Assembly (NCBI GenBank): GCA_007693595.1
Contig: REDI01000038.1
Span: forward strand, 1-64,000
DNA length: 64,000 nt
Origin: Deltaproteobacteria bacterium
GTDB taxonomy: Bacteria > Myxococcota_A > UBA796 > GCA-2862545
Direction of reading: 5' to 3'
Positions 29,630 through 31,405 of the stretch are shown piece after piece. How positions within the stretch are numbered: the first letter of the stretch is position 1; every line of letters begins with the position of its first letter. A program made the translations under genes and the position numbers. The notes beneath the pieces were generated by a model. It was not told the origin of the DNA. It saw nothing but the letters and a program-made list of their open reading frames with translations, and made no database searches.

Positions 29630-29669
29630 ACAACTGGTTTTGTGTTGTGCGTTCTGTGGAGGCTCCATC

Positions 29670-30551
29670 ATGGCCAAGTTGACTGATCAAGCCGGACGTC
29701 CTCATTCCGGTCTCCTGCCTTATCCCGTGCCCGCGATCGTCGTCGACAACGACGACCCCGATGAGCTCGGTCGGATCAAGGTCAAGTTCCCAACCCTTCA
29801 CGACGAGCCCCTCTCGTTCTGGATCCGTCAGGTCAGCCCGAACGCTGGCAAAGAGCGCGGCTTCTACGCCCTCCCGGAGCTCGACGACGAAGTGCTCGTG
29901 CTCTTCATGATGGGCAGTCACGACATCGGGGTCATCATCGGCCAGTTCTGGAACGGCGAAGACGTGCCCCCCGATGAGGCCCGCGACGGGATGCCAGGTC
30001 CTGGCCAGCTGTGGAAAGGGGACTGGTCCAAGGATGACTTCGAGGCAGGCAGCTCCGACGACGAAGACAACGACCGTCGCTTCTGGAAGTCCCGCTCCGG
30101 GCACCTCTTCGTCTTCGACGACACCAGCGGCGAAGAGACCGTCCAGATCTGGGACAAGTCCCACAAGCTGGCTCTCGTCTTCGATACGAGCAATGAACGT
30201 ATCATTCTGAGCAACAGCGGCGGCGACATCCACATCCGCGCCAAGAACGACCTCTTCCTCGAAGCGGGCAACGACTGCAAGTTCATGGTCGGCAAGAACC
30301 TCGACACCGAGGTCGGCTCAAACAGCACGTGGACCGTCAAGCAGAACCACAAGCTCAGCGCCAACATGGACATCGTGCTCGACGCCGGCAAGGACTACAA
30401 GCTCGACGCCAGCTCCAACATCACCGCCAAGGCTGGTCTGAACGCCAAGATTGAAGGCTCGCTCATGTTCGCCGGAAAGGGCGGCCAGATCGCGAAGCTC
30501 GAAGGTGGAACCGCCGCCATGGTCAAGGCCTCCACGGTCATGCTCAACTAG
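29670..30551 (+). CDS. orphan contractile-system spike protein (gpV/VgrG OB-fold plus beta-helix)
   Basis: Protein of 293 residues from the ATG at 29670 with GGAGG upstream; an in-frame ATG at 29640 lies in the promoter leader. Residues 15-95 form the gp5/VgrG-type OB fold: PAIVVDNDDPDELGRIKVKF, SFWIRQVSPNAGKERGFY, LPELDDEVLVLF, IIGQFWNGED. An acidic linker follows, and then about 160 residues of short alternating strands with Lys/Asn/Gly turns (HIRAKNDLFLEAGNDC, TWTVKQNHKLSAN), as in the trimeric beta-helix needle. It would sit at the tip of a phage tail, type VI or extracellular injection device. No sheath, tube or baseplate gene is nearby. Confidence 0.85.
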   Translation: MAKLTDQAGRPHSGLLPYPVPAIVVDNDDPDELGRIKVKFPTLHDEPLSFWIRQVSPNAGKERGFYALPELDDEVLVLFMMGSHDIGVIIGQFWNGEDVPPDEARDGMPGPGQLWKGDWSKDDFEAGSSDDEDNDRRFWKSRSGHLFVFDDTSGEETVQIWDKSHKLALVFDTSNERIILSNSGGDIHIRAKNDLFLEAGNDCKFMVGKNLDTEVGSNSTWTVKQNHKLSANMDIVLDAGKDYKLDASSNITAKAGLNAKIEGSLMFAGKGGQIAKLEGGTAAMVKASTVMLN

Positions 30552-30748
30552 CCGTCCGCTGGCGCCCTCTCGGGAACCCGCTGGTCGGGCCGCGCAGGCC
30601 GAGTCTTTGCCTCGTGCCAACGGTTCGTCCTGGGCTGTGCTTGGCCCGTCCTGAGCTCCTGCTCCGATGCGCTGCGCTGTGGACGCGCGTACGCTCTGGC
30701 AGGCCACCGATGGACGCGATACCCGCCGCCCCAGGATGAGGAGGGCGC

Positions 30749-31405
30749 GTGAGCCGACCGAGCACCCCGCTGCTACAAGACCTCCGTCAGCGGATCGCCG
30801 AGCGAGGCGTGGCGACCAAGGATCTCGCGCGCGTCACCGGGATCCTGCCGCCCCAGCTCGACGCGATCCTCAGCGGGATCAGCCCCATGACCGTCGATGA
30901 GCTCCTCACCATCGGCGAGGCGCTCGAGCTCAGCCCCGCAGACTTCGGCTGGCTCGACCCCGAGCATGAGCAACCGCTCTACGACGCCGTCTTCGACGAA
31001 GAAGAGGACTTCTCGGATCTGGTCAGCACGCTGGACCCCGCGGGCAACCACGCCTGGCAGCTCTTCGAGATCGGCTTTGGACTCGGGTGCGACTTCTTCT
31101 TCCATGCCGATGGTCAGCAGCTCGAGGGCTCCGGCCTGCCGCAGAGCGTGATCGAACGGTATCGGGCCTCCGTCTTGCCCATCAAGCTCGACGCCGCCTA
31201 CCACGTCTACAACGAGCCCCGGTACAGCGCAGAAGGGATCGAGCTCAAGCTCTCGTTCGACGAGGTCTACGACTGCTTCTTCCCTTGGACCGCGGTCCAG
31301 CGCGTCATCTTCTCGCCGCTCCCGCCCCCGGAGCCCCCTTCGCCCCAGCCGGACGAAGAGGACGACGAGCCCGCCGGCGCCCCCTTCCTTCGCCTGGTCG
31401 AATAG
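30749..31405 (+). CDS. HTH domain fused to SspB-like ClpX-adaptor domain
   Basis: Protein of 218 residues from the GTG at 30749, with GAGGAGGG upstream. Residues 9-66 form an XRE-like helix-turn-helix (IAERGVATKDLARVTGI, ISPMTVDELLTIGEALELS). Residues about 98-190 follow the SspB core: a first helix (HAWQLFEIGFGL), a strand (DFFFHADG), LPQSVIERYRASVLPIKLD, then GIELKLSFDEVYDCFFPW and AVQRVIFSP. A Pro- and acid-rich linker (191-210) leads to the end APFLRLVE, close to the LRVVK tail with which E. coli SspB docks on the ClpX zinc domain. If correct, a DNA-binding or substrate-sensing module is tied to a ClpXP delivery module. This is inference from motif and layout. Confidence 0.7.
   Translation: MSRPSTPLLQDLRQRIAERGVATKDLARVTGILPPQLDAILSGISPMTVDELLTIGEALELSPADFGWLDPEHEQPLYDAVFDEEEDFSDLVSTLDPAGNHAWQLFEIGFGLGCDFFFHADGQQLEGSGLPQSVIERYRASVLPIKLDAAYHVYNEPRYSAEGIELKLSFDEVYDCFFPWTAVQRVIFSPLPPPEPPSPQPDEEDDEPAGAPFLRLVE

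Follow-up and report, generated by a model that had tools for sequence, protein, structure and literature searches.

An SspB-fold protein joined to an XRE-type helix-turn-helix domain, the probable ClpXP adaptor of a bacterial order in Myxococcota_A

SspB passes unfinished proteins that carry a tag on to the protease ClpXP. To our knowledge, the SspB adaptors known so far are built of a core and a tail and have no DNA-binding domain. The zinc-binding domain of ClpX binds the XB tail at the C-terminus of SspB (PMC8138137), and AANDENY is the half of the E. coli tag to which SspB binds (PMC8512704). The protein described here is encoded in a 64,000-nucleotide stretch of a Deltaproteobacteria genome (contig REDI01000038.1, hereafter the window). 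It shares with the SspBs of E. coli and C. crescentus (PF04386) the core fold, the motif C.(V/F)PW.A(V/I), an acid- and proline-rich linker and the LR(L/V)V tail. It differs from them by an additional N-terminal part of about 70 residues, consisting of a helix-turn-helix (HTH) and a linker, by a core whose divergence puts it below the Pfam cut-off, and by its presumed partner, a tmRNA tag that starts with ANN and not with AND. The SspBs of this phylum that lack an HTH, such as L080, L081 and L057, have a homologous core, a long linker and a tail LRVVK or LRLVK; those that were read carry no HTH, and they occupy the opposite side of a 99/99 branch. The N-terminal fold, on the other hand, is that of the Cro/C1 (XRE) regulators C.Esp1396I, DdrO and ClgR, with a basic recognition helix in most homologues. 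Unlike in these regulators, the HTH is joined here to a putative proteolysis adaptor, and in the window the helix reads PPQLDAIL, without R34 and R/K38. No description of an HTH-SspB fusion was found in open PMC texts, subscription papers being outside the scope.

The layout of gene and protein is summarized in Table 1. A ribosome-binding site (GGAGG at 30740-30744) precedes the GTG start codon. Judged by its homologues in 48 of 58 related genomes, the open reading frame is a real gene. The sequence-only reading had proposed a protein built of an XRE-like HTH, an SspB core and a ClpX-docking-like tail. All motifs it quoted are indeed found in the reading frame, namely LPQSVIERYR (residues 130-139), ELKLSFDEVYDCFFPW (residues 165-180), the Pro/acid linker and the tail at the C-terminus ...APFLRLVE. 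Further, the proposed anatomy was borne out by the predicted SspB fold and by the presence of LRxV in all aligned homologues.

Table 1. Positions of the fusion gene and its parts within the window
Feature	Position	Strand	Description and basis
HTH-SspB fusion gene	30749..31405	+	218 aa, GTG start; ORF list and sequence, homologues in 48/58 relatives
Cro/C1 (XRE)-type HTH, residues 8-66	30770..30946	+	PF13443, 31.3 bits; PDB fold matches C.Esp1396I, DdrO, ClgR; column counts
Acidic linker between HTH and core, residues 70-93, variable	30956..31027	+	low pLDDT; high column entropy and gaps
SspB-fold core, residues 94-190	31028..31318	+	AlphaFold core, PDB fold matches, hhalign to SspB alignment
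Pro/acid-rich linker, residues 191-211	31319..31381	+	length and sequence vary
ClpX-docking-like tail PFLRLVE, residues 212-218	31382..31402	+	LRLV at 214-217; LR invariant (30/30)

Structure prediction provides the most direct view of the core. AlphaFold2, supplied with 30-32 family sequences, modelled it with pLDDT values mostly of 91-98; the whole model, HTH and core together, reached a pTM of 0.52 and does not fix the mutual placement of the two domains. When the isolated core was compared with PDB structures, SspB was the top fold in both searches. In Foldseek, rows 1-17 were all SspBs (1ou9_A, E 5.1e-4, probability 1.00) and the row that followed had an E-value of 0.48. In VIA-align, rows 1-12 were all SspBs, with Z of 7-10 for all solved SspBs (C. 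crescentus 2qaz: Z 10.2, rmsd 3.2, 93 residues); one designed small barrel scored Z 7.3 and the next unrelated rows at most 6.0. Identity of the core to solved SspB structures is only 9-19%.

Searches by sequence tell how far this core has diverged. With the window protein as a single query, only the HTH found matches in Pfam, NCBIfam and PDB sequence searches, and none was obtained for the C-terminal part. The Pfam search gave no PF04386 match of the window protein above the curated cut-off, and no PF04386 match was present in its own genome at E 0.001. Five of the 30 family members do match this model, all below threshold (E up to 10, the best 0.0025). Profile-profile comparison (hhalign) of the family with Pfam-confirmed SspBs of the same phylum yielded E 1.7e-8, and fused cores and SspBs have the motif LSF...C.(V/F)PW.A(V/I) in common. 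The missing PF04386 match is a detection limit, not a biological feature; the protein is a diverged, fused variant of SspB. As far as models and profiles can tell, its C-terminal region has the SspB fold, beyond a chance likeness.

Across the 30 members, no stretch of the fusion protein is better conserved than the tail. Its mean column entropy is 0.76 bits, as compared to 1.57 for the core, 1.66 for the HTH and 2.41 for the linker; the Pro/Asp/Glu linker in front of it varies in length and is not conserved in sequence. Every aligned protein (30/30) terminates with LR[LVI][LVI], where L214 and R215 never vary, and shuffling of the last 27 residues gives a chance of about 0.0005 per sequence for this ending. 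By sequence, a ClpX-binding (XB) motif LRxV behind a flexible linker is thus present. Among the members, L020 and L021, for example, have the ending PFLRVVK; LRVVK, LRLVK or LRIIK is found at the end of several SspBs of the phylum that lack an HTH. Other endings were encountered as well. One SspB branch of the phylum (L163-L169, L172, L173, L175, L176) has a variant tail of the (A/S)(R/A)F(R/K)(V/I)I(D/E)GG type, not LRxVK. In L060:1820-3169 (G031:C285), a longer reading frame that has no HTH includes a second SspB-like core, and its C-terminal extension is a different one, with the end PHLSLVE. A viral contig (L201, IMG/VR IMGVR_UViG_3300007512_001076), which also carries exonuclease- and SSB-like genes, encodes at 1168-1530 an SspB-like protein of 120 aa that has no HTH and terminates with APKLELV; this may be a phage adaptor or a mimic of an adaptor.

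According to a profile search, six families of the order possess the protein in full length, and both domains are present in all 30 aligned members. Homologues, mostly one copy per genome and mostly at 34-51% identity along the greater part of the protein, occur in 26 of 27 genomes of good quality; the 10 relatives (of 58) without a match are mostly incomplete genomes. Contig searches returned no match with the window protein as a single query and 24 loci with the alignment as a query. The named records at these loci are MAGs filed under Myxococcota, Myxococcales, Deltaproteobacteria or Proteobacteria, plus a few with odd labels. No homologue of the fusion protein was found on plasmids. A complete fused copy (L171) resides in a distant bin of another family (G192:C423, 12 Mb, 7% contamination), which is either transfer or contamination.

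How is this distribution related to that of ordinary SspB? No PF04386 match occurs in the 58 relatives, but across the phylum 72 of 190 genomes have one; the fused protein therefore takes the place of SspB. Other families of the same class possess HTH-less SspB-like proteins (L057, L058, L059, L170) with tails LRVVK, LRIVK or LKLVK, and the two of them that were scanned against PF04386 gave weak matches. In a core tree (unrooted, about 100 columns), a branch with support 99/99 has every fused member on its one side, a topology that fits a single fusion event.

Presumed partners of the adaptor are available in these bacteria. The ClpX zinc-binding domain is encoded in 29 of 29 genomes, usually by at least two genes, and 12 of 12 genomes have tmRNA-family matches, 9 of them above the gathering score. 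The tags start with ANN in 12 of 12 cases within the order and with AND in 10 of 10 outside it; the window's own genome has ANNNNAFAARMAA, and AANNNNAFAARMAA is an example of a native tag. The switch from D to N at residue 4 of the mature tag goes together with the fusion of the adaptor. As this is one phylogenetic event, a co-change of adaptor and tag is suggestive only.

We consider it likely that the fusion protein is the ssrA/ClpXP adaptor of this order of uncultivated, myxobacteria-like bacteria, extended by an HTH. It is the only recognisable SspB of its lineage, and it probably still serves as an adaptor for the ssrA tag. In this model, the fused core would bind tmRNA (ssrA)-tagged proteins and the flexible C-terminal LRLV tail would dock on the zinc-binding domain of ClpX. 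The XRE-type HTH would have been joined to the N-terminus of SspB once, in the ancestor of the order.

The HTH is the sole significant Pfam match of the window protein (PF13443, HTH_26, cut-off 22 bits), its fold relatives in the PDB score Z of about 10, and it is conserved as well as the core. The recognition helix is basic in 28 of 30 members, with Arg at position 34 and Arg or Lys at position 38. In the window genus the helix reads PPQLDAIL (window protein) or TARLDALL, with D38 and a net HTH charge of -4 or -5, so that the window protein and its congener have lost the basic residues. Because of this pattern, we consider it likely that the HTH binds DNA in most of the order, but doubt that it does so in the window species. 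In most members the basic HTH probably binds DNA and would either keep the adaptor there or make it a regulator whose DNA binding depends on the load of tagged proteins. In the window genus the acidic HTH may have lost DNA binding, and its role would then be no more than structural, dimerising or protein-binding. Inverted repeats and shared k-mers upstream of the gene did not exceed shuffled controls, and no operator common to the family was found; autoregulation of the fusion gene is therefore unsupported.

The alternatives assign the two domains differently. In the first, which takes up the inference of the sequence-only reading, the protein is a dedicated regulator: its HTH would recognise an operator or a transcription factor, and its SspB part would deliver this partner, or the whole protein, to ClpXP, with no task in handling the bulk of ssrA-tagged substrate. 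Such delivery is a possible activity of the protein, and the prevalent basic helix and an HTH as conserved as the core (1.66 vs 1.57 bits) agree with a dedicated regulator. Nevertheless, we regard it as unlikely, because the protein is the sole recognisable SspB of the order and is order-wide and mostly single copy, as expected for a housekeeping adaptor; a conserved operator was not found upstream, and the window genus dropped the HTH charge yet kept the tail. The neighbourhood comparison of relatives likewise offers no order-wide neighbour gene as an obvious target. A Phage_base_V gene (T6SS/phage baseplate spike-like, 29640-30548 in the window) lies upstream; many relatives from several families have it in the same direction as the fusion gene. 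A 2OG-Fe(II) oxygenase gene often follows downstream in the window's own family; neither is order-wide, and they give no functional link.

An HTH followed by a ligand-binding domain is the domain order of many one-component regulators. It is thus conceivable that the protein is an SspB-derived transcription factor without delivery, in which the core senses ssrA-like peptides and the tail is a ClpX degron or a relic; the adaptor function itself is putative. We find this improbable, since conservation peaks in the tail, which matches the tails of HTH-less SspBs, and since the window genus retains core and tail without DNA-binding residues. Finally, an ordinary XRE regulator with a chance likeness to SspB is hardly credible: the HTH is all that Pfam recognises in the window protein, but fold, profile and tail evidence contradict this reading and all agree on SspB.

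Taken together, we favour a diverged SspB adaptor that acquired an HTH, and its existence implies that SspB reaches past what the Pfam model detects. More tentatively, and with somewhat more doubt than conviction, we suggest that the whole order uses a DNA-binding ClpXP adaptor which senses or carries ssrA-tagged products, and whose HTH either adjusts gene regulation to the load of ribosome rescue or serves to bring DNA-associated proteins to the protease. The difference in the tmRNA tag presents a ready test case of adaptor-degron co-evolution. The predicted fusion of adaptor and HTH suggests a direct link between protein clean-up and gene control; if the order-wide HTH fusion is true, quality-control proteolysis would be tied to DNA or transcription in one polypeptide.
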